This document shows positions 22,836 through 43,017 of a stretch of 46,825 nucleotides of DNA, piece after piece (the stretch's first letter is position 1; every line of letters starts with the position of its first letter). Made by a program: the position numbers and the translations under genes. A model generated the notes under the pieces. The model had not been told where the DNA came from, searched no databases, and worked only from the letters and a program-made list of their open reading frames with translations. Source of the DNA: Deltaproteobacteria bacterium (GTDB taxonomy: Bacteria; Desulfobacterota; Syntrophia; Syntrophales; UBA5619); contig JAJFTY010000197.1 of assembly GCA_021372695.1 (NCBI GenBank), positions 1 to 46,825 of the forward strand, given 5' to 3'.

Positions 22836-23840
22836 TTACCAGGGGATGAATCGATACAGCTTGGCGAACATCTCATAAACCTCGATCCAGTTCCGGAGAT
22901 CCTCCGCGGACTGCATGTGCGCCCTCTTGTTCACCATCACCCAGCTCATATGGGCCGCGCCGTCCTTGCAGGTCGAACAGTCCCGGGTGGCGGAGGTGCA
23001 GCAGCGGTGCATCGTCTTGAGATCGGCCGCCCAGCGGATGAACCGGATGAGGCGCTTCGGGCGCGGGGTGCGATTGTCCAGAGGTTCCGTCACGGAGGGG
23101 CATTCGCTCCAAGAAAACGGCCGACCCAGCATCCGTCCGGTTGTGATGATCTCGTGGTAATAGCGGCAGGAGATGACGGTTTGGGGGTAGCGGTCCAGCA
23201 TGGAATCCATCTCGCTACGGATGTCCGCAAGCTGAGCGGGCGTCCAGGAGAATCCGTCCACCCCCTCGTCGTTGGAGAGAAGCTGCATGTGGACCTTGAG
23301 CCCGGCATCGGCGATTCTCCGAATCACCCGCTCCGTGCGGCCGAGCTGCCGGGAGGTGATCGTGTAGAGGTAATAGGCGTCCGGATCGCCCGCGTAGTTC
23401 CGGCTGGAGACGGCGAAGGCGTCCTTCCCCCGGAGAAGTTTCTCGTCTGCCTCGTCGCCCCAGAGGGAGATCCCCACCATCATGCCGGGGAACCGGTCGC
23501 GGGGCACCTTGATCAGGCCGTTCGTCGCGCAATAGGTCGGAAGGCGCTTGTAGAAGGCCTCGATGCGGTCGAGATAGAGGGTTGGCTCGCCGCCGATGAG
23601 AATGGCCAGGTTGACCCCCCGCTCCTGCTCCTTCTCCACGAAGGCCTCCCACCGCGACAGATCCTCCTCTTCCGGTGCCGCCTTGTGCTCGTCGGAGGAG
23701 AAGAAAAAACACCCCTTGCAGCGCAGGTTGCAGCGGTTGGTCACATCGTAGATGGAGCTGCGGATGTTCAGGCGGGAAATCGCCTTGTAGCGCTCATACC
23801 AGTCATGATCCAAGAGTGTGCTGACAGTCTGCATCGTCAT
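22836..23840 (-). CDS. radical SAM enzyme with C-terminal four-cysteine motif (paralogue 1)
   Basis: A 334-residue radical SAM protein without a B12 domain. The 4Fe-4S motif is Cys37, Cys41 and Cys44 (CNLRCKGC), followed by the SAM-binding GGEPTL (83-88). Near the C-terminus, Cys280, Cys281, Cys288 and Cys291 (CCTSATRDCSTC) form a compact cluster like the auxiliary-cluster sites of SPASM/twitch enzymes. The ATG at 23840 overlaps the stop of its upstream paralogue as ATGA. Not matched to HpnH or another named enzyme; probably acts on a carrier-bound or lipid intermediate (inference from operon). Confidence 0.88.
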   Translation of the reverse strand: MTMQTVSTLLDHDWYERYKAISRLNIRSSIYDVTNRCNLRCKGCFFFSSDEHKAAPEEEDLSRWEAFVEKEQERGVNLAILIGGEPTLYLDRIEAFYKRLPTYCATNGLIKVPRDRFPGMMVGISLWGDEADEKLLRGKDAFAVSSRNYAGDPDAYYLYTITSRQLGRTERVIRRIADAGLKVHMQLLSNDEGVDGFSWTPAQLADIRSEMDSMLDRYPQTVISCRYYHEIITTGRMLGRPFSWSECPSVTEPLDNRTPRPKRLIRFIRWAADLKTMHRCCTSATRDCSTCKDGAAHMSWVMVNKRAHMQSAEDLRNWIEVYEMFAKLYRFIPW

Positions 23841-24949
23841 CTCTTCCCGGTTTCTTCTCCCGGGGGGGAAACCATCTCCGCGCAGAGATTCTCCCCCTTT
23901 TCGTATCCCATCACCCAGACGCCCAGATAGGTGTCGACGTAGTCCAGCCAGGCCCTGAAGAGCCGGGGCGCCGTCGCGTGCCGGTAGAGCCGGGCGGTGA
24001 CGACGGCGCTTCCCGCCGCGTAATGCCGGCAGTCGCCGCAATCCGTATCGGGAACGCAGCAGGCGGCGCTCCGGTCCCAGGTCAGGTCGGTCCGGAACTG
24101 ACGGAAAGAACGTCCCAGCCCGATGTCCGTCGAAGGGTTCATCCGGGGATAGGAGCAACCGTACAGTTCGTGAAGCCCCCTCGCCTGCGTGTGGGCGACG
24201 GCGCTGTAAGGGGAAAAGAGCACGCCCTCGGGATGCCGGGCCATCATCTCTCCCATCGCCTCCCGGGTGCGCATCAGCGACTCCGCGTCGTGACGCAGCG
24301 GACCCGCGTAGCCGACGGGCGACGAGAAAAGGTTGAAGGTGACCTTGCACCCCTCCCCCGTCAACCTTTCGACGACGCCCTCGGCCTCTGCGATGTTTTC
24401 CCGGGTGAAGGTGTAGACAAACACCGCCCGGGGGTCGCCCCGGTAGTTCTCGATCTGTCGGTCCAGCAATGCCGAAGCTTTGCGCACGCGGAGGCTGGTC
24501 GCATCGCTTCCCCAGACGGAGATGTGGACCTTGTAGCCGACCGCGGGATCGATGCGGCGGACACCGTTGGTCGCGATGCAGCCCAGCGGCATCTCGGCGA
24601 AACAGACCTCCAGCAGCCCCGGAACCAGAGAGGGTTCCGCCCCGGCCAGGACGACGTAGGTGATGCCTCGCTCTTTCTCCGCACGCATGAGCGACCGCCA
24701 CGCTCCGGCGTCCCCGTTCTCCTCGGCGAACTGCTTTGCCCCCTCGTAGTAATAGCAGCCGTCGCAGCGCAGATTGCAGCGGTTGCTCATGTCATAGGTG
24801 GATTCCCGGAGGAAAAAGTATTTTCGGACCTTTTCCCAGCGGGCCTTCACTGCCGGATTCGTCAATAGTTCTGAAAATTTCCACCGCCGGCCGTCCGTTC
24901 CCATCCGGGAGTCGGCATCACCCCTGCGGCTTTGGCGATCGTCAGGCAT
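23837..24949 (-). CDS. radical SAM enzyme with C-terminal four-cysteine motif (paralogue 2)
   Basis: A 370-residue paralogue of the next gene. It has an N-terminal extension of about 25 residues, then Cys58, Cys62 and Cys65 (CNLRCDGC). LAGAEPSL (101-108) replaces the usual GGEP. Cys297, Cys298, Cys304 and Cys307 (CCVPDTDCGDC) form the C-terminal cluster. The ATG at 24949 overlaps the ACP stop by eight bases; a later ATG at 24904 would remove the extension. Two coupled paralogues sharing an unusual Cys motif suggest a heteromeric pair or consecutive reactions. Same family and same uncertainty about the substrate. Confidence 0.87.
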   Translation of the reverse strand: MPDDRQSRRGDADSRMGTDGRRWKFSELLTNPAVKARWEKVRKYFFLRESTYDMSNRCNLRCDGCYYYEGAKQFAEENGDAGAWRSLMRAEKERGITYVVLAGAEPSLVPGLLEVCFAEMPLGCIATNGVRRIDPAVGYKVHISVWGSDATSLRVRKASALLDRQIENYRGDPRAVFVYTFTRENIAEAEGVVERLTGEGCKVTFNLFSSPVGYAGPLRHDAESLMRTREAMGEMMARHPEGVLFSPYSAVAHTQARGLHELYGCSYPRMNPSTDIGLGRSFRQFRTDLTWDRSAACCVPDTDCGDCRHYAAGSAVVTARLYRHATAPRLFRAWLDYVDTYLGVWVMGYEKGENLCAEMVSPPGEETGKR

Positions 24950-27403: not shown

Positions 27404-28696
27404 GTGAAAAGGAAACCCTCGATCAGCAATCGGCAGTTGCAGGCGGTTTTCGAACAGGCTGCGGTGGGAATGGTCATCGTCGACGCAACCCAAAGCCGCT
27501 TCGTGAAAGTCAACCGCCGTTTCTGCGAAATTGTGGGCTACTCGTCCGAGGAGTTGCTGCGAGGGTCCATCCATGACATCACCCACCCCGACGATCTCGG
27601 CAGGGACCTCGGCCACATCGAACAGATCAGCAACGGCACCGCCCACGACACCACCTGGGAAAAGCGTTACCGCAAAAAGGATGGAACCATCGTATGGGCC
27701 CGGGTTTTCGTGACCCCGCTCGATCCCTCCGAAATTCAGCCGACTTTGAGGATCGGGGTGATCGAGGAGATCACCGACCGCAAACGGGCGGAAGAGACCC
27801 TGAGAGAGAGTGAGGAGAAATTCCGCCTCCTGATCGAAAATGCGCCCGATGCGATCTACGTGCATACCGACGGCCGGTTCATCTACCTGAACCAGGAGGC
27901 CGTGAAACTCTTCGGCGCCCGAATGGCCGGGCAGCTGATCGGATCCCCCCTGATGGACCGGTTCCACCCGGACTACCATGCGACCATCACGGAACGCCTC
28001 AATGACCTCTACCGGGAGAAAAAGAAACTACATGTCGTCGAACAGGTCTATCTTCGGCTGGATGGATCATCCGTACCGGTGGAGGTCCATGCGATCCCGA
28101 TCGTCTACGACCATCAAGACGCGGCGCTGACGTTTGCGCGCGACATCACGGACCGCAAGCGGGCCGAGGAGGCGCTCCGGGAGAGCGAAAAGAAATACCG
28201 CGAACTCAGCATCGTCGACGATCTCACCCAGCTCTACAACTCCCGGTATTTTTATCACCAGCTGAAGATGGAGGTCGATCGTGCGGAACGCTACGGGCAG
28301 CCGCTGACCCTCATGCTTCTCGACATCGACGACTTCAAACGCTACAATGATGATTACGGCCATATCGAGGGAGATGAGGTCCTGATGCGCCTCGGGCAGG
28401 TGGTCAAACGCTGCCTGCGTCAGTCGGATACCGCCTACCGTTACGGTGGAGAAGAGTTTGTCATCCTCCTTCCCATGACCACGAGCGCCGACGGCGCCGT
28501 CACGGCGGAAAGAATCCGGACCGAATTCAGGCGGGAGGATTTCTCTCCGCTGCCGGACCGGGAGGTCCACGTGACGATGAGCATTGGCGTGGCGCAGTTT
28601 CGGCCGCAGGAAGAGATGAAGGCCTTCGTTCACCGGGTGGACAAACTCATGTACCAGGGGAAACAGAGCGGGAAGGACAGGGTCTGTTCGGAATGA
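27404..28696 (+). CDS. PAS-PAS-GGDEF diguanylate cyclase
   Basis: A 430-residue signalling protein. Two PAS domains (about 10-130 and 140-255, each ending in a DITDRKRAEE-type linker) precede a GGDEF domain (about 270-425). GGEEF lies at 348-352 and the product-inhibition site RQSD at 339-342, so it should make cyclic di-GMP and be feedback-inhibited. No membrane segment is present, so it is cytosolic. The GTG start has no ribosome site, and the promoter places transcription start on it: likely leaderless. Its stop overlaps the next ATG (ATGA). Confidence 0.92.
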   Translation: MKRKPSISNRQLQAVFEQAAVGMVIVDATQSRFVKVNRRFCEIVGYSSEELLRGSIHDITHPDDLGRDLGHIEQISNGTAHDTTWEKRYRKKDGTIVWARVFVTPLDPSEIQPTLRIGVIEEITDRKRAEETLRESEEKFRLLIENAPDAIYVHTDGRFIYLNQEAVKLFGARMAGQLIGSPLMDRFHPDYHATITERLNDLYREKKKLHVVEQVYLRLDGSSVPVEVHAIPIVYDHQDAALTFARDITDRKRAEEALRESEKKYRELSIVDDLTQLYNSRYFYHQLKMEVDRAERYGQPLTLMLLDIDDFKRYNDDYGHIEGDEVLMRLGQVVKRCLRQSDTAYRYGGEEFVILLPMTTSADGAVTAERIRTEFRREDFSPLPDREVHVTMSIGVAQFRPQEEMKAFVHRVDKLMYQGKQSGKDRVCSE

Positions 28697-29799
28697 CCGT
28701 TTCCATCGACACTTCCACTGGAAAAACGCTGTTTGCCGTCATTATGGCCGGCGGCAAGGGCGTGAGATTCTGGCCCAGGAGCCGCGAGCGGATGCCGAAG
28801 CACCTGCTGGACATCCTGGGGGAGCAGGCGATCATCCGCGAAACGGTGGACCGGATCCGGCCGCTCGTTCCGCCCGAACGCACGCTGATCGTCACCGGCC
28901 GAAACCACGCCGCCGAGCTCATCCGTCTGCTCCCGGAGATCCCCGCGGAGAATATCCTCATCGAACCGGTCGGCCGGAACACCGCCCCCTGCATCGGCCT
29001 TGCGGCGCTCCATGTCGAGCGGCGCTTCCCCGGCGCGGTGATGCTGGTCCTCCCTGCCGACCACCGGATCGGTGATGAGGTGGCGTTTCGTCGCACCCTC
29101 ATCGAAGCCGCCCGGGCCGCTTCCGAGGGGAGCCCCCTGGTGACAATTGGCATCCGGCCGACCGGACCGGAGACGGGATACGGTTACATCGAGCAGGGCG
29201 ACCCTTTTCCGGCCGGCGCCGGAGCCGGGGTCTGCCGGGTCCGCTCCATCCGGGAAAAGCCGCCCCTCCATCAGGCGCAGGAATTCCTGAGGCGGGGCTG
29301 CTTCTTATGGAACAGCGGCATGTTCGTCTGGAAGACCGCTACGATCCTGGAAGCGATCTCGCGCTTCCTGCCCGAGCTTTACCAAGGGCTCACGGAGATC
29401 CACGCAGCGCTTGGAACCGAACGGGAGGAGGAGGTCGTAGGCGAAGTCTATGCGGCGCAAAAAGCGGTTTCGATCGATTACGGCGTCATGGAAAAGGCCG
29501 GGGATGTCCTGGTCGTTCTCGGAGAGTTTGGCTGGTCCGATCTGGGAAGCTGGGATGCCCTCTGGGAGGTCTCGGAAAAGGACGATGACGGAAACGCCGT
29601 CCGGGGCCCCTTCATCGGCGTCGACGCCGGTGATTCCCTGGTTCACAGCCCCGGCAAACTGGTCGCCATCGTCGGGGTCCGGGACCTGCTCGTCGTCGAG
29701 ACAGGCGACGCTCTCCTCATCTGCCGACGGGGACGATCGCAGGATGTCCGGAAGGTCGTCGAGTTTCTCGAAAAGAAGGGGTCGAAGGAATATCTGTAA
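28693..29799 (+). CDS. manC: mannose-1-phosphate guanylyltransferase
   Basis: Makes GDP-mannose from mannose-1-phosphate and GTP for polysaccharide or glycan synthesis. The 368-residue protein is the short form without the C-terminal isomerase domain of bifunctional ManC/AlgA. The nucleotide-binding signature MAGGKGVRFWPRSRERMPKHL begins at residue 18 (20-residue stretch quoted in part), followed by EPVGRNTAPCIGLAAL, LPADHRI and GYGYIEQG. It is translationally coupled to the diguanylate cyclase gene, hinting that c-di-GMP and exopolysaccharide are linked here (inference). Confidence 0.92.
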   Translation: MTVSIDTSTGKTLFAVIMAGGKGVRFWPRSRERMPKHLLDILGEQAIIRETVDRIRPLVPPERTLIVTGRNHAAELIRLLPEIPAENILIEPVGRNTAPCIGLAALHVERRFPGAVMLVLPADHRIGDEVAFRRTLIEAARAASEGSPLVTIGIRPTGPETGYGYIEQGDPFPAGAGAGVCRVRSIREKPPLHQAQEFLRRGCFLWNSGMFVWKTATILEAISRFLPELYQGLTEIHAALGTEREEEVVGEVYAAQKAVSIDYGVMEKAGDVLVVLGEFGWSDLGSWDALWEVSEKDDDGNAVRGPFIGVDAGDSLVHSPGKLVAIVGVRDLLVVETGDALLICRRGRSQDVRKVVEFLEKKGSKEYL

Positions 29800-30800: not shown

Positions 30801-31502
30801 CTAGGGCAGGTAGAGAGAGAAGACCCCCCCGTCGTAAATTCCTCCGTTCAGGGTCTGGATGAAGCCTCCCCTCCCCTCTCGGGTATGAGATCTCGCGACC
30901 AGGACGGAAAAGTACAGTCCGAGACCCGTGCTGCCGGTCAGGAAGGAGACATGGCTTCCGGCGGAGCCTCCGTTCAGGCGGCTGTCCATGATGAAGCGAT
31001 CCGGATACCCCGGGCCGTTGTCTTCCAGCCGGATGATCAGGTACCCCTCTTCTCTTGTCGCGCTCACCATCAGCCTGTCTTTGGTGTACAGATACTCGTT
31101 ATTCAACATGCTGTCGAGAATGCCCATGACGAGTTCCCGGTCGAAAGACCAGAAGAGATCGGCAGGGCACTGCAACTCGATATCGATCCCTTTGGAGGTG
31201 AGGAGGGGCTCGTTCACGACAATGGCCTCATCCAGGCAATCATGGACCGAATGGTAGTCGAGGTTGATGGGGAAGCTGGCCTTCTTGGCCTTGTACAGAG
31301 AGAGCATCCGGATGAAATTATGGTTCAACCGACGCAGTTCATACTGAATCAGAAAGTGGTCTTTCTGGACCGGGCAGCCCTGTTGCTGGCACTCGCTGAT
31401 CATGGTGTCCAGCGTATTGTAGAGCATCCCCAGTGAGTTCTTCGCGTCATGCATGGTCGATGCGAGGATGTCCGAAAACGCTAAAGTGTCGCTGTCATCC
31501 AT
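30801..31502 (-). CDS. soluble histidine kinase without sensor domain
   Basis: A 233-residue kinase made only of a dimerisation/phosphoacceptor helix (His18 in STMHDAKNSLG) and a HATPase domain: N box around NNEYL, DNGPGYP (G1) and GSTGLGLYF (G2). With no sensory or membrane segment it must receive its signal from a partner. Its start overlaps the end of the response-regulator gene by 22 bases, so the two form a pair, probably with reciprocal phosphotransfer. The terminal residues end on the catalytic domain without extension. Confidence 0.88.
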   Translation of the reverse strand: MDDSDTLAFSDILASTMHDAKNSLGMLYNTLDTMISECQQQGCPVQKDHFLIQYELRRLNHNFIRMLSLYKAKKASFPINLDYHSVHDCLDEAIVVNEPLLTSKGIDIELQCPADLFWSFDRELVMGILDSMLNNEYLYTKDRLMVSATREEGYLIIRLEDNGPGYPDRFIMDSRLNGGSAGSHVSFLTGSTGLGLYFSVLVARSHTREGRGGFIQTLNGGIYDGGVFSLYLP

Positions 31503-33151
31503 GATAACGGCTCCTTGGAAATTTCCCGATAGACGATGAGCAGGCCGGGAAGATCCCTGTACTGGGGATCGTTGCGGTATACGCCCTCAAGATATTTCTG
31601 CGCCTTCTGAATTCCTTCCGTGCTCTTCCCGTTCTTTTTCATGTCGAGCATGCAGGCATAGGCGGCATTAGCATTGATCAGCGTGTTGTCGGGCAGACCT
31701 TCCGCGGCCTTGTCGAAGTAGGAGGTCGCCTTGGCCAACTCACCCTCTTTGACCAGCTTGACACCCTGGTTATTCAATTCGGCAACCTCCTCTACGGCGG
31801 CGCTGAGCAGTTCCTGGCCCTCCTCGGCCATGTTGAGCCCTTCGAACATCTTTGCCGTTTCCGCGAGCAGCTCTTCATTCTGATGGTTGCTTTGAATCAG
31901 TTTCCGGACAATCTCTTTGCCCTTCTGGGCGTCGCCGCTCAGGATGAGGGCCTTCGCCAGTTCGAGTTCGACATCGGCAGGCACTTTCACGGGCGATTTT
32001 CCGGTTGCCTTGATCACTCTATTGATGGACTCCCTGGCCTCCTCCTGCCGGTTCAGCTTCTGGTAGACCTGGCTCGCCGCAAGGCCGATCTCGACCGTTG
32101 CGCCGAGATCGCGCGCAAATGTCTGCTGGGCGTCCCCAAGGACGCTGAGGCCTTCCTCGGGTGAATCGGCATCCACCAGGACCTTGGCCAGCGCGGTGTA
32201 ATCGGATGGGGCCTTGAAGGCGGAATTCTTGCCATATTTCACCGCCGACTTGAAAGATTTGACGGCGGTCTTCATATCTGCGTTCTTTTGGGCGATGGTG
32301 CCCAGTTCCCTTTGACGGTCCAGGGTACGGGGCGAAATTTCGGTCGCTTTCGTCAGAACACTCTGCGCCTCTTTGGGGTTTCCCATGGCCACGAGCACCT
32401 TGGCCAGCCAGTCGTACGCGGCCATCACCTTGTCGTTTGTCTGGATCAACAGGGTGAAGGTCTGCTGCGCGTCCTCCAGACGGCCCTGCAGATACTGGCA
32501 CTTCCCGAGGCCGAACAGCGCCCACGGCATCTTGCCCATGGCAGAGACCTCTTTGTAGAACGCCTCCGTCCGTGGATGATCGCCCCTCTTTGCCAGGATC
32601 TCGCCCTTGATCCGCAGGACCTCACCGATGTGTTTCGGGCTTTTGCCGATCGCTCCATCGCATAGGCTCAGGGCCTTTTCGTAATCCATCACCTCTATGG
32701 TCTGCACGATTTCTCTGAGAGCGATCTTCTTCCCCAGAACATGCAGGAGTTTCTTCTCGAGCATCTGCTTGGTGAAGGGTTTCATCAGATAGTCGTCAGG
32801 CATGTATTCCACGGCGCCCATCACCATGTCCATGCTGTTTTCAGCGGTCACCATCATGAAGACGGTCATGTAGTTCACATACTTGAAGTGCTTGGCCTCC
32901 TCGAGAACCTGCTGTCCGTCCTTGCCCGGCCCCAGGTTGTAGTCACAGAGGATGACATCGTATTTCGCCGTCGACATCCGCAGGAGCGCACTTTCACCGT
33001 CGAACGCGTCAACGATATGCGCGACACCGAGGCTTGCCAGCATCCCTTTGACCGTTCTCCGGAAATTGACGAAGTCGTCGACGACCAGGAACTTGAGATT
33101 CTTCAGTCTGTCTATCGTCGGCGCGATGGGGTCTTTATTCAGATATGCCAC
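31481..33151 (-). CDS. response regulator receiver-TPR protein
   Basis: A 556-residue protein: a CheY-like receiver (about 18-140; acidic pocket Asp25/Asp26, phospho-acceptor Asp70 in VILCDYNLG, Thr102 and Lys124 in LMKPF), then a long helical TPR array (about 150-540). No DNA-binding or enzymatic output domain, so output is probably by protein-protein contact through the TPRs. The start is a GTG with AAGGAG nine bases upstream; an ATG between them gives only a 7-codon frame. It is co-transcribed with the sensor-less kinase. Confidence 0.9.
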   Translation of the reverse strand: MAYLNKDPIAPTIDRLKNLKFLVVDDFVNFRRTVKGMLASLGVAHIVDAFDGESALLRMSTAKYDVILCDYNLGPGKDGQQVLEEAKHFKYVNYMTVFMMVTAENSMDMVMGAVEYMPDDYLMKPFTKQMLEKKLLHVLGKKIALREIVQTIEVMDYEKALSLCDGAIGKSPKHIGEVLRIKGEILAKRGDHPRTEAFYKEVSAMGKMPWALFGLGKCQYLQGRLEDAQQTFTLLIQTNDKVMAAYDWLAKVLVAMGNPKEAQSVLTKATEISPRTLDRQRELGTIAQKNADMKTAVKSFKSAVKYGKNSAFKAPSDYTALAKVLVDADSPEEGLSVLGDAQQTFARDLGATVEIGLAASQVYQKLNRQEEARESINRVIKATGKSPVKVPADVELELAKALILSGDAQKGKEIVRKLIQSNHQNEELLAETAKMFEGLNMAEEGQELLSAAVEEVAELNNQGVKLVKEGELAKATSYFDKAAEGLPDNTLINANAAYACMLDMKKNGKSTEGIQKAQKYLEGVYRNDPQYRDLPGLLIVYREISKEPLSWMTATL

Positions 33152-33398: not shown

Positions 33399-33731
33399 TT
33401 ACGGATGGGGATAGAGCCTCTCCGTTTCAGGGGTCGATCTCCCGGGAATGGCCACGCCGCCCTGGACAAGGGCCTGCGTTATCGCTTCCGGGTCCGTCTT
33501 CCCGTCGTCGAAGGTGATCCGCATCCGGTTTTGGGCGGGACTCATGAACCGGATGATCCCGTCCTTCCCCTTGAGGATAGAACTTATCCTCGCGAAGGGG
33601 CCTCAGGCGGTGCAACCGGGGATGGTCAGCTCAAAGGATTTTTCCGCCGCCGCGAGAGGAGCGGCGAGCGCCAGGATCCAGATCATACCGGCCAGCAGGG
33701 CTACCCGCAAGATTTTTTTCGCGTTCGGCAT
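33399..33731 (-). CDS. periplasmic HMA/MerP-like selenoprotein (UGA = Sec43)
   Basis: A 110-residue protein that becomes visible only if the in-frame TGA at 33605-33603 is read as selenocysteine. A Sec signal peptide (1-29, ending APLAAA) leads into a heavy-metal-associated-like domain. The metal/thiol motif is PGC-T-A-U-GPF, with Cys40 and Sec43 where MerP has CxxC. After the UGA the frame continues as a normal HMA-like region (RMRITFDDGKTDPEAITQAL) to a TAA. The ATG at 33731 follows GGGGG. A bacterial SECIS hairpin sits right after the UGA. Probably a periplasmic metal-binding or redox protein; transport of mercury itself is not shown. Confidence 0.85.
33567..33605 (-). promoter_or_regulatory. 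SECIS element with UGA selenocysteine codon
   Basis: On the minus strand the UGA (33605-33603) is followed by a two-part stem: CCCCTT (33600-33595) with AAGGGG (33572-33567), a CGC bulge, then GAGGATA (33591-33585) with TATCCTC (33579-33573) around the loop AGTTC (33584-33580). All 13 pairs are Watson-Crick. The loop begins 18 nt after the UGA and has G in its second position, as expected for SelB recognition in bacteria. Confidence 0.85.
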
Positions 33732-33758
33732 CGATCCCCCTTACACAAATTCACGTGT

Positions 33759-34278: not shown

Positions 34279-34893
34279 ATGAAGATTTACACCTCGGGAA
34301 GACTCATCCTCGCCTCCGCCTCGCCCCGCCGCGGCGAGTTCTTAAAGACCATGGGCCTCGAATTCGATATCCTGCCGGCCGACATCGATGAGGCCTTCCG
34401 GCTCGAAGAGACGCCGAGGGAGCATGTGATGCGCCTTGCCGGGGAGAAGGCGCTCTCCGTCGCCCGCTTTCACCCCGATGCCTGGGTTCTCGGCGCCGAC
34501 ACGATCGTTCACGTCGCCGGTGAACTCCTGGGAAAGCCCGCATCACCGGCGGCAGCGGCGAGGATGCTCGAAAAGCTGAGCGGTCGGGAGCACGAAGTCG
34601 TGACAGGCTTCAGTCTGGTGCGTCTGGATCGCGAGGTCCGCATCCGGGAGGCCGTGGCCTCTTCCGTTCTCTTCCGGGAAATCACGCGGGATGAGATCGA
34701 CTGGTACACCGGGACCGGGGAGCCTTACGACAAGGCCGGCGCCTACGCCGTTCAGGGAATGGGGGGCTGCTTCGTCCGGGAGGTCCGCGGCTCCTGCTCG
34801 AATGTGGTGGGCCTCCCGTTGTGCGAAGTGGTCCAAACGCTGAAACGCGCCGGGGCGATCCGGTTCAGCCGGCAGGAGCGGTCGGTTTCGTAG
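34279..34893 (+). CDS. maf: Maf-family nucleoside triphosphate pyrophosphatase
   Basis: Hydrolyses non-canonical or modified nucleoside triphosphates (dTTP/UTP or m7GTP class) to monophosphates, with links to septum control. The 204-residue protein has the hallmark LILASASPRRGEFLK (9-23), VLGADTIVHV and the C-terminal GAYAVQGMGGCFV. The ATG at 34279 is where the family begins; the open frame runs further upstream into leader sequence. It is first in a four-gene operon with yggS, a membrane protein and a rubredoxin fusion. Confidence 0.93.
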   Translation: MKIYTSGRLILASASPRRGEFLKTMGLEFDILPADIDEAFRLEETPREHVMRLAGEKALSVARFHPDAWVLGADTIVHVAGELLGKPASPAAAARMLEKLSGREHEVVTGFSLVRLDREVRIREAVASSVLFREITRDEIDWYTGTGEPYDKAGAYAVQGMGGCFVREVRGSCSNVVGLPLCEVVQTLKRAGAIRFSRQERSVS

Positions 34894-39653: not shown

Positions 39654-39848
39654 ATGAAAATGTGGGCTTATGCTGGCGCGCGTATATTCGCCGGAATCGG
39701 TCTTTCGGGAGGAGGTCTTGCCGAAGCGCTTCGAAATCGCGTCTTCCGTTGCGATCCGCGGGGAGGCGGCGGAGTTTTTTCTTGCGGTCTCATCGACGGA
39801 AGGTTAGAAATTCGACGAGGTCAAAAAACAAAACACACGGAGGTCAAC

Positions 39849-40538
39849 ATGGAACGCAAGATACAGCGAAGGGAATTTCTGAAAGCTTCGGCGGCGACGG
39901 GAACGATTCTATTGGCCGGGAATGCCGTCCTCTCTTTTCCCGACATCGCCATGGCCGCCGAGCCGCAGTCAATTCAGCTCTCAAAACCTCAGCCTCAAAC
40001 CAACGGCAATCCCGCGCTGCTGCTGTTGCAGAAGAGGGCCTCTTCGCGGGAACTCAGTCCCCGGCCTCTGCCGGCCGAGATTCTTTCCGAACTGCTCTGG
40101 GCAGCCTTCGGGATCAACCGCGCCGACGGCAGGCGCACGGCGCCAACGGCCAGCAACAGGCAGGACATGGATATCTACGTGATTCTGGCTCAGGGCTGCT
40201 ATCTTTACGACGCCAAGGCCAACCGGTTGAATCCCGTGGCGGCGGAGGATCTGCGCGGACTGGCCGGCACCCAACCCTTTGCCAGGGATGCCCCGGTGAA
40301 CCTGATTTACGTCTGCGATTACTCCCGGATGAGCAATGTCCCGGAGGAGACCAAGATCCTGTTCTCCGGGACCCATACGGGCGCCATCGCCGAGAATGTG
40401 TACCTTTATTGTACAGCCAGGGGATTGGCCACGGTGGTACGGGCGTCCATCGATAGAGCAGCGCTCGCAAAGGCGATGAAACTGAGGCCTGAGCAGAAGA
40501 TCACGCTCGGACAGCCCGTCGGCTACCCCAAAATGTGA
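39849..40538 (+). CDS. Tat-exported nitroreductase-family protein
   Basis: A 229-residue FMN-dependent nitroreductase-like protein (SagB/NfsA-type fold). It has an N-terminal twin-arginine signal (RREFLKASAATGTILLAG, 7-24; the DIAMAA cleavage region ends near 37), then LLQKRASSRELSPRPLPAEILSELLWAAFG in part, ASNRQDMDIYV, and the C-terminal AENVYLYCTARGLATVV. Export through Tat implies folding with FMN in the cytosol first. The ATG at 39849 follows CGGAGG. It stands alone, divergent from the PAS-LuxR gene, which may control it. Substrate unknown. Confidence 0.9.
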   Translation: MERKIQRREFLKASAATGTILLAGNAVLSFPDIAMAAEPQSIQLSKPQPQTNGNPALLLLQKRASSRELSPRPLPAEILSELLWAAFGINRADGRRTAPTASNRQDMDIYVILAQGCYLYDAKANRLNPVAAEDLRGLAGTQPFARDAPVNLIYVCDYSRMSNVPEETKILFSGTHTGAIAENVYLYCTARGLATVVRASIDRAALAKAMKLRPEQKITLGQPVGYPKM

Positions 40539-40556: not shown

Positions 40557-42827
40557 TCAGGGCCGGGCCAGGACGCGGCGCCAGCGGCGGCGCAGGCGCA
40601 GGGAGTTGCTGACGACCGAGACGGAGCTCATCGCCATCGCAGCCGCGGCAAACTCCGGATTGAGCAGGATCCCCCAGAGAGGATAGAGGACGCCTGCGGC
40701 AATCGGGATCCCGATCACGTTGTAGATGAACGCCCAGAAGAGGTTCTGGCGGATCGCCCGCATCGTCTCGAAGGAGAGGCGGATCGCCCGCGGCACCGCG
40801 AAGAGGTCCTCCTGCATGAGCGTGATGTCGGAAGCCTCGATTGCCACGTCCGTCCCGGCGCCGATCGCGATCCCGATGTCCGCGGCCGCGAGGGCCGGCG
40901 CGTCGTTGATCCCGTCCCCCACCATGGCCACGACCTCGCCCGCTGCCCGGAGGCGTCTGATCTCCGCGGCCTTGTCGCCCGGCAGCACCTCCGCGAGAAT
41001 CCGGTCGATGCCGAGGCACTTTCCCATCCCCGCCGCCGTCGCGGCGTTGTCCCCCGTGATCATCGCCACCTTGAGCCCCATCCGCTTCAAGGCGGCGACG
41101 GCTCCCTCCGCGGAGGGCTTGGGCTGGTCGGCGAATCCCAGGAACCCGAGAAGCCTGCCCCCCTCCGCAACAAAAACGGAGCTCTTGCCGTCTGCGGCCT
41201 GTCTCGCCGCTGCCGTTTCCATGCCGCCAAGGTCGATGCCTTCCCCTTCCAGAAAACGGCGGCTGCCGAGGAGGACGTCCTTCCCGTTCCGGACCGCCTT
41301 CACCCCCAGGCCGGAAACGGCTGCGAACCCCATGACTGTGGCAGGCGTGAGGCCATCCCGTTTGGCCCGCTCCAGAACGGCCCGGGCGAGCGGGTGCTCC
41401 GAGACCGCCTCGATGTCACAGGCGGTCTGTAGCAGCTCGGCCGGCTCGATCCCGGAGGCGGGGACGATATCCGTCACCTCTGGCTCACCCCGGGTCAGGG
41501 TGCCGGTCTTGTCGAAGACGACCATCCGCAGGCGGTAGGCATTCTCCAGGCTCTCCCCTCCTTTGATCAGGATCCCGTTTTCCGCACCGATTCCCGTCCC
41601 GACCATGACCGCTGTGGGGGTGGCAAGCCCCAGGGCGCAGGGGCAGGCGATCACGAGGACGGAGACGAAATTGAGCAAGGCTCGGCTGAACACCGGGTCG
41701 GGAACGATGAAATACCAGACCGCGAAGGTGACAAGCGCGATCCCGAAGACGACCGGGACGAAGATCGAGGCGACCTTGTCCGCGAGACGCTGGATCGGGG
41801 GTTTGGAACCCTGCGCCTCTTCGACGAGGCGGATGATCCGGGCGAGAGCCGTCTCCGCACCGATCCGCGTCGCCTCGAACGTGAAGCTTCCGGTGCGGTT
41901 GAGCGTCGCGGCAAAGACCTCCGCCCCCGCCTCCTTGGCGACCGGCATGCTCTCTCCGGTCAGCATCGCCTCGTCGACGCTGGAACTTCCCGAGAACACG
42001 ACCCCGTCCGTGGGAACCTTCTCTCCCGGCCGGACCACGACCATATCGCCCAGAAGAAGCATCTCGATGGGAATATCCGCCTCGACGCCTGCGCGGACGA
42101 CGCGTGCCGTTTTCGGCTTCAGCCCGACCAGGCGCTGAATCGCCTGGGAGGTCTGCCCCTTGGCTCGTGCCTCCAGGAGCCGGCCGAGGATGATCAGGGT
42201 CACGATGAAGGCGGCCCCGTCGTAATAGACGTGCGGCATCACTTCCGCCGCGGAGAAGAGCCGCGGGAAGAAGGTGGCGAGCGACGAGTAGAGCCAGGCC
42301 GAAAGCGCCCCCACGGCGACCAGCGTGTTCATGTCCGTGGTCTTCTGGCGGGCCGCCTTGAGCGCCCCGATGAAGAACCGGCTTCCCACCCAGAAGACAA
42401 CGGGCGTGGTCAGGAAGAAGAGGGCGATCAGGAGCGGCCGGCGGGGGATCCCCATCAGAAACGGGAACCAGTGCTGCATAGAGCCGAGGAAGATCACGAC
42501 CGAAAGGGCCATGCCAACGGTGAAACGCGTCCGGAGGTCCCGGATCTCCCGCATCCTGGCTGCCCCGATCGGGTCCTCGCGGGCGTCGTCGGGAACCCCC
42601 AGGAACTCATACCCCTGATCGACGATCACCTGACGGAGCGCTTCGGTACCGGCCCAGCCCGCGGCGTGCGAGACGGTCGCCCGGCCGGTGGCGAGGTTCA
42701 CCGCCACCTCCATGACCCCCGGGAGCTCCCGGAGGGCGTTCTCCACCCGGCGGACGCAGGCGGCGCAGCTCATCCCGCCCACGGAAACGGTTGTCTTCAG
42801 GGTCGGCCCGCTCGGTTCAGTCGGCAA
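40557..42827 (-). CDS. copA: copper-translocating P1B-type ATPase
   Basis: Exports Cu(I) across the inner membrane. The 756-residue protein has one N-terminal metal-binding domain (GMSCAAC, Cys21 and Cys24), the TGES actuator motif, membrane CPC (ACPCALG), phosphorylation site [15 protein letters not shown] and [10 protein letters not shown]. No ATG exists before the GMSCAAC region; I choose the TTG at 42827, which has AGGG eight bases upstream and overlaps the copZ stop by 11 bases. It forms a two-gene unit with copZ. Silver transport is possible as well. Confidence 0.94.
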
Positions 42828-43017
42828 CTTTGAACCCTGCCTTTTCGATCCGCTCCCGGACCAGGGCCGGGTCCACGGGCTTCTCCTCCGTGTAGGAGGC
42901 CTCGGCCTTCTCCAGATCCACCTTGACGTCGCCAATTCCGTCGATATCGACCAGCGCCTTGGTCACTGCCATGACACAGTGCTTGCAGGTCATTCCCCTC
43001 ACCCTGATGGTAGGCAT
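42817..43017 (-). CDS. copZ: copper chaperone, heavy-metal-associated domain
   Basis: A 66-residue cytosolic metallochaperone of the HMA fold that hands Cu(I) to CopA. The metal-binding loop GMTCKHC starts at residue 8, followed by the usual beta-alpha-beta-beta-alpha-beta pattern ending in [12 protein letters not shown]. The ATG at 43017 has AAGGAGAG upstream. Its 3' end overlaps the copA start, so the chaperone and the pump are translationally coupled. Confidence 0.93.

Follow-up and report, generated by a model that had tools for sequence, protein, structure and literature searches.

The minus-strand reading frame 33731-33399 of the window, by which we mean the whole 46,825-nucleotide stretch of DNA analysed here, is very probably a genuine selenoprotein gene, a member of a small exported family of HMA/MerP-like proteins that is found in the Syntrophales and neighbouring orders, appears to stand as its own unit and most likely serves soft-metal handling. 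The recoding of its single in-frame UGA as selenocysteine is strongly supported by sequence comparison, which brings together a constant UGA, a covarying hairpin behind it and the decoding machinery of related genomes. A first-pass annotation of this DNA had already proposed a selenoprotein at this place and had named what would speak against it, namely a genome without sel genes, a lack of homologues with Cys or selenocysteine at the aligned position, and random substitutions after the UGA; none of these was encountered in the relatives searched, and the identification is supported.

Results

Reading frame and predicted fold

The gene comprises 110 codons, as delimited by its frame and its homologues, and reads MPNAKK...PLAAAEKSFELTIPGCTA-UGA-GPFARISSILKGKDGI...LYPHP-TAA on the minus strand, its sole break being the UGA at codon 43 (33605-33603), which comparison with homologues indicates is read as selenocysteine, and its end the TAA at 33401-33399. 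An RBS-like AAGGGGG is found 4 nt 5' of the ATG (33736..33742, minus strand), the first 29 residues (MPNAKK...PLAAA; 33645..33731, minus strand) resemble a signal peptide, and the UGA stands in the context IPGCTA-UGA-GPF, with 67 codons from there to the TAA. This confirms the arrangement described in the first-pass annotation, an in-frame TGA between a signal-peptide-like start with PGC-T-A and a C-terminal half. The coordinates 33399..33731 given there also hold, but they came without a strand; the frame lies on the minus strand, and a plus-strand reading yielded nothing. Rfam, at gathering thresholds, and ARAGORN returned no matches across the window.

With the UGA taken as selenocysteine, the frame would encode a signal-peptide-like start followed by an HMA/MerP-like domain that carries the motif PGCTAU. 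The hydrophobic N-terminus ends PLAAAEKS and is probably cleaved near AAA/EKS, to judge from these residues, and the AlphaFold2 model places a helix at residues 4-22, within the signal-peptide-like region. That model, with Cys substituted for selenocysteine, is HMA-like (mean pLDDT 82.5, pTM 0.60), and profiles, AlphaFold2 and Foldseek delimit an HMA-fold domain at about residues 30-92 (33456..33644, minus strand), modelled as beta-alpha-beta-beta-alpha, in which Cys40 (33612..33614, minus strand; alignment A2) opens the CxxU motif. The nearest solved chains in Foldseek are CopA (1oq3) and MerP (1osd, at 6.1e-4), a profile comparison to MerP 1osd reaches 1.7e-10, and a ferredoxin-like HMA fold is accordingly what modelling predicts.

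Curated families capture this resemblance at low scores. The best NCBIfam match of the window protein is MerP TIGR02052, for which it scores 30.7 bits where 92.55 would be needed to pass; ten other members score 25.2-56.8 bits against the same family, none of the members scanned singly passes any curated cut-off, and no Pfam family, PF00403 included, is matched by the window protein at E <= 10. Among 70 members scanned, matches at E <= 0.01 were obtained to MerP TIGR02052 for 69, to NF041115 for 31, to HMA PF00403 for 23 and to NF045683 for nine; alignment A2 likewise holds 70 rows, chosen by length, start and identity. The MerP-like character claimed in the first-pass annotation therefore stands as a resemblance, which nearly all scanned members share, but not as membership of MerP, given a score far below the cut-off and no adjoining mer genes as far as tested.

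The protein shares with MerP (TIGR02052; PDB 1osd, 1afi) the signal peptide, the single HMA domain and a TFDD.KT-like stretch, and its selenocysteine aligns with the second thiol of the metal loop, in keeping with the earlier proposal of a selenocysteine in place of the second thiol of a MerP-like metal motif. It differs from MerP in having CxxU instead of the CxxC pair, in falling below the curated cut-off, and in apparently forming its own transcription unit near Maf and guanylyltransferase genes in an order where MerT is found in 2 of 155 genomes. An HMA-type domain with selenocysteine in the metal loop is also common to NF041115 (UxxU metal-binding (seleno)protein) and NF045683 (MerT/CopZ-fusion-like selenoprotein), but the former has two selenocysteines (UxxU) and a 95-bit cut-off, of which the ten members scanned singly reach 24.7 bits at best and for which the window protein is not listed even at E <= 10, and the latter is a longer fusion of 235 positions with a cut-off of 375.

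Homologues and the constancy of the UGA

The nearest named relative in a scan of genome contigs, L001 from Syntrophaceae bacterium UBA6112 (genome G001), is 72% identical over residues 22-109, shares the TGA position and has a hairpin top identical to that of the window. In the order around G001 (155 genomes; match threshold E <= 1e-3), 103 genomes carry 110 matches, 106 of which contain exactly one in-frame TGA and four of which contain no stop and have Cys at the aligned place; wherever the frame is interrupted the codon is TGA (106/106) and never TAA or TAG. Homologues with Cys or selenocysteine aligned at position 43, the absence of which would have weighed against the first-pass annotation, thus make up the whole set. 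Among the 112 rows that we read (the 110 matches, L002-L111, together with the window and L001, which is the same gene as L002), UGA is present in 108, as CxxU in 97, as CxU in nine, with Tyr for Cys in one (L098) and in one that is cut short (L017). Two Cys forms, L099 and L104, read GCADC, the other two, L097 (CDC) and L109 (CAC), belong to the CxU branch, and three further Cys homologues come from the database (P0016, P0034, P0035).

The tree was built on 107 columns for 112 rows and its bootstrap is unsettled; for these reasons only its starred forks were used. In it L099 and L104 nest inside the CxxU clade, with support of 98/95 and 99/89. Four other Cys rows, L109, P0016, P0034 and P0035, sit beside CxU rows. 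Past the UGA, at +48..+150, dN is 0.337 against a dS of 0.883 among nine near relatives, a pattern at odds with random substitution; in one genome, G131, the homology stops right after the UGA. Taken with the 106 of 110 matches, the dN/dS ratio indicates that the in-frame UGA is conserved and that the sequence is coding both before and after it. Five loci of the CxU branch (L060, L065, L075, L084, L094) are HMA selenoproteins with a C-terminal thioredoxin-like fusion, in which the motif is WCxxS or WSxxS without a second Cys.

Beyond this order, an evenly drawn sample of 395 genomes of the phylum gave profile matches at E <= 1e-8 in at least 39, a number that is a floor because at most 12 candidates per genome were scored and that includes in part ordinary copper-pump domains. 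In the order around G438, 22 of 85 genomes carry 27 matches. A single TGA is present in 24 of these, which divide into 13 with CxU, three with CxxU, three with CU, two with Cys only after the selenocysteine and three without a neighbouring Cys (L124, L164, L166); one gene of this order (L159, in G547) has no TGA and a Ser at the selenocysteine place, in a genome whose SelB match is weak. Four of 12 genomes match in the order around G276, three of them (G276, G303, G450) with a TGA that is preceded by Val-Val and no Cys. All told, seven selenocysteine genes from three orders (L098, L124-L127, L164, L166) have no Cys up to three residues before the selenocysteine or directly after it. Since the Cys shifts (CxU, CU, UC) or vanishes in the two further orders, it is the UGA, and not the Cys, that constitutes the constant part of the family.

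A conserved hairpin behind the UGA

RNA folding predicts a 13-pair hairpin of 6 + 7 pairs at 33567..33600 (minus strand), a candidate bacterial SECIS, and alignment and covariation single out its conserved core at 33573..33591 (minus strand), a 7-bp stem with the 5-nt loop AGTTC (33584-33580) and an invariant G at 33583. The first-pass annotation had reported 13 pairs and a loop starting 18 nt after the UGA, and both are correct for the window; relatives, however, conserve only the upper 7-bp stem and the loop and not the lower six pairs, as exemplified by L001. Considered alone, the window hairpin stands out only modestly: its z is -1.95, and when a 53-nt stretch is shuffled with its dinucleotides kept, 8 of 200 versions fold at least as well. 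Against codon-preserving, GC-matched shuffles its -17.9 kcal/mol compares with -9.24 kcal/mol (z -2.9; 0/100 as low); it can be regarded as beyond chance because it is conserved in relatives.

Our RNA test set retained 97 of the 108 UGA rows; those taken out were near-duplicates, rows of insufficient length, and L106, L108 and L111. Over +3..+44 these non-redundant rows average -11.17 kcal/mol against -7.61 kcal/mol in codon- and GC-preserving shuffles (mean z -1.51), and for three stretches taken from these genes as controls the mean z values are -0.03, -0.01 and -0.04 in codon-preserving shuffles; singly, only 42% of the 97 hairpins reach p <= 0.05. Alignment A1 contains 89 of these 97 rows without gaps, the eight CxU rows, which are one codon off, being left out. 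In it 97.1% of the 623 cells of the upper 7-bp stem hold a standard pair, with slid versions of the stem pairing in 25-49% of cells, and two-sided changes affect six of the seven pairs in a total of 45 cells; five measures were compared with 500 shuffles, and no shuffle attains the observed value of even one of them. In 15 of the 89 rows the outermost pair does not form, and the second loop base (alignment column 23) is G in all 89.

The same constraint is visible in the codons, as the stem Arg codon is AGG in 85 of 88 cases, against 15% elsewhere in these genes, the stem Ile codon is ATA in 66 of 67, against 20% elsewhere, and dS amounts to 0.504 in the hairpin versus 0.992 before and 0.883 after it. 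The hairpin is gone in all four Cys forms (L097, L099, L104, L109). The bSECISearch programme looks for a stem-loop that follows the UGA at a short distance and has a G among the first bases of its apical loop; the spacing of 18 nt to the loop, the invariant G as second loop base and the covariation describe a hairpin of that type.

Selenocysteine machinery

Of the sel genes that the first-pass annotation proposed to look for, SelB, SelD and tRNA-Sec were sought in relatives and found in most. In G001 two SelB matches, of 376.9 and 373.9 bits, clear the cut-off of 242.25, and tRNA-Sec scores 79.2 bits where the gathering score is 47. Across the order of G001, 142 of the 155 genomes pass for SelB and 137 for tRNA-Sec at these thresholds; tRNA-Sec also passes in all eight genomes tried from the orders around G438 and G276. 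SelD was searched in nine genomes and not found in G001; the other eight pass, each with a hit that itself carries one TGA. On our reading of the match list, ten of the 103 family genomes have no better than weak or partial SelB matches, and in four of these (G020, G057, G058, G138) the tRNA-Sec matches are weak too, and three genomes of the order around G438 (G535, G543, G558) combine a TGA gene with a weak SelB.

Three side observations may be recorded. The two full-length SelB matches of G001 (G001:C54, G001:C41) may represent either a real pair or a mixed bin. In several of the genomes G032, G033, G035-G044, G047 and G050, a tRNA-Sec match lies some 10-20 kb from the family gene on the same contig. 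Within the window, a 621-aa ORF at 22839-24701 (minus strand) has weak radical SAM matches; that to the (seleno)protein TrsS ranks first, with 30.5 bits where 490 are required.

Genomic neighbourhood

The flanks available to us span 1.5-3 kb and are often cut. Within them at least 71 of 110 loci have a divergently oriented Maf gene upstream, at least 69 have a convergent mannose-1-phosphate guanylyltransferase gene downstream, and at least 61 have both. The window, of which 20 ORFs were scanned against families, keeps both Maf (34279-34890) and the guanylyltransferase (28693-29796), the latter 3.6 kb away. This neighbourhood suggests that the gene is transcribed on its own and lacks a partner for metal resistance. 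MerT was found in 2 of the 155 genomes of the order, and the family is present in only one of these (G092); such near absence of MerT speaks against a classic mer system. A CopA-like sequence occurs in the flanks of 2 of 110 loci. HgcA is commoner in genomes with the family (60/103) than in those without (15/52; Fisher p 6e-4, kinship not corrected for), and G001 itself is without HgcA.

Elsewhere in the window, a copper-exporter-type P-type ATPase with an HMA domain (40560-42935, minus strand; TIGR01511, 613 bits, over cut-off) lies about 7 kb from the gene and adjoins a SagB-like ORF (39654-40535, plus strand) that scores below cut-off. A response-regulator/TPR protein (31484-33151, minus strand) stands between the gene and the guanylyltransferase, and is found near the gene in 1 of 110 loci.

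Earlier records of the family

Ordinary gene finding misses the gene on account of its UGA. The first-pass annotation called it unannotated, and the database bears this out, in that the entries we found are either fragments on one side of the UGA or have W in its place: two pieces end at the UGA (P0006, P0007), six start past it (P0004, P0005, P0057, P0058, P0060, P0065), among which P0060 is called hypothetical and has 22 member sequences, and four entries (P0003, P0008, P0009, P0012) show W at the selenocysteine column. Families of this kind were reportedly first listed in a 2007 study of Olavius symbionts.

A 2008 survey of the Global Ocean Sampling data lists, in the portion consulted (PMC2398784, Table 2), a selenocysteine-containing "Mercuric transport protein MerP" with two sequences, one sample and no Cys homologues. 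That entry places a selenocysteine-containing MerP as early as 2008, and therefore this kind of protein is not wholly new; its two sequences may belong to the present family, neither motif nor domain being given in that portion. The part consulted of a 2026 inventory of 119 prokaryotic selenoprotein families (PMC13188914, Table 1) includes a MerT-type and a UxxU protein and contains no MerP or PF00403 CxxU entry, and a 2006 list of 19 Syntrophus aciditrophicus selenoproteins holds no such protein in the part available. A term search of PMC8318568 for a prior report gave no matches, and the search of the literature also extended to parts of PMC9312934, PMC12013277 and PMC1794560.

Discussion

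Our results outline a family in which a UGA occupies the position of the second thiol in the metal loop and would be decoded as selenocysteine with the aid of a short hairpin just behind it. The product would then be exported and its signal cleaved, the selenolate in the metal loop would act as the reactive centre, and the nearby Cys would be a helper that may be moved or lost. A soft metal ion, e.g. Hg(II) or Cu(I), could be held in the periplasm by the selenocysteine together with this Cys or with an outside thiol, and the gene would be transcribed on its own, no mer operon being visible around it. We favour soft-metal binding because the selenolate sits in the metal loop, and we give such a periplasmic role about an even chance; the scarcity of MerT and of CopA-like sequences in the flanks and the partner Cys that is not fixed all tell against it.

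The strongest competitor, somewhat less probable but to be taken seriously, is that these are redox selenoproteins: their selenocysteine, together with the Cys in members that have one, would form selenenylsulfides or act on disulfides or peroxides of the periplasm as a reductant, and the HMA fold would be a scaffold only. CxxU, CxU, CU and UC motifs are familiar from thiol oxidoreductases, and it is precisely as CxxU, CxU, CU and UC that the partner Cys appears here. A redox role is thus kept open by the Cys that moves or is missing and by the five thioredoxin-like fusions, one of which (L084) matches PF14595 at 1.3e-8. Nevertheless, Pfam recognises the fused domain in only one of the two fusions scanned, and the seven selenocysteine genes without a neighbouring Cys imply that an internal Cys-Sec bond cannot be general. 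Some role other than metal binding or thiol/selenol redox appears unlikely.

Readings that dispense with selenocysteine fare far worse. That nothing is recoded, the gene being a short secreted peptide that ends at the UGA or else a pseudogene or a sequencing error, is highly improbable: the separate short ORFs that the database holds on either side of the UGA and the homology in G131 that ends after it would suit such a reading, but it has to contend with purifying selection past the UGA, a TGA that is never TAA or TAG, a covarying hairpin and nested Cys homologues. A pseudogene, a sequencing error and two separate genes were rejected on the grounds of TGA conservation among homologues, hairpin folding and covariation, dN/dS and the tree. 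Equally improbable is a UGA read as tryptophan by an alternative code or suppression, since the four W entries are consistent with gene calling under a code in which UGA = W, the residue in TGA-less genes is Cys (4/4, first order) or once Ser (L159, second order) and never W in the DNA that we read, and the hairpin and the sel genes would be without a role.

As regards the recoded protein, its function is at present a guess, that of a periplasmic selenol handling a soft metal or thiols. A bolder proposal, which we advance tentatively, is that the HMA metal loop came to rely on selenium for its entire task, the selenocysteine and its hairpin being kept as the partner Cys moves or disappears, turning a two-thiolate clamp into a single-selenol site in the periplasm of sediment anaerobes; no description of single-selenol chemistry in HMA proteins was found in the literature searched. 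If our interpretation is true, an abundant exported selenoprotein of the Syntrophales and their neighbours, present in 103 of 155 genomes of one order, is stored as fragments or with a wrong tryptophan. It would likewise provide a single hairpin in more than 100 naturally occurring versions, which follow a clear rule in the loop, for testing bacterial recoding signals, along with natural controls in the form of Sec-to-Cys replacements in one clade. Finally, it would raise the question of what task a selenol has in a fold known to bind copper and mercury through a pair of thiols, in bacteria that in many cases possess hgcA, the gene for mercury methylation.
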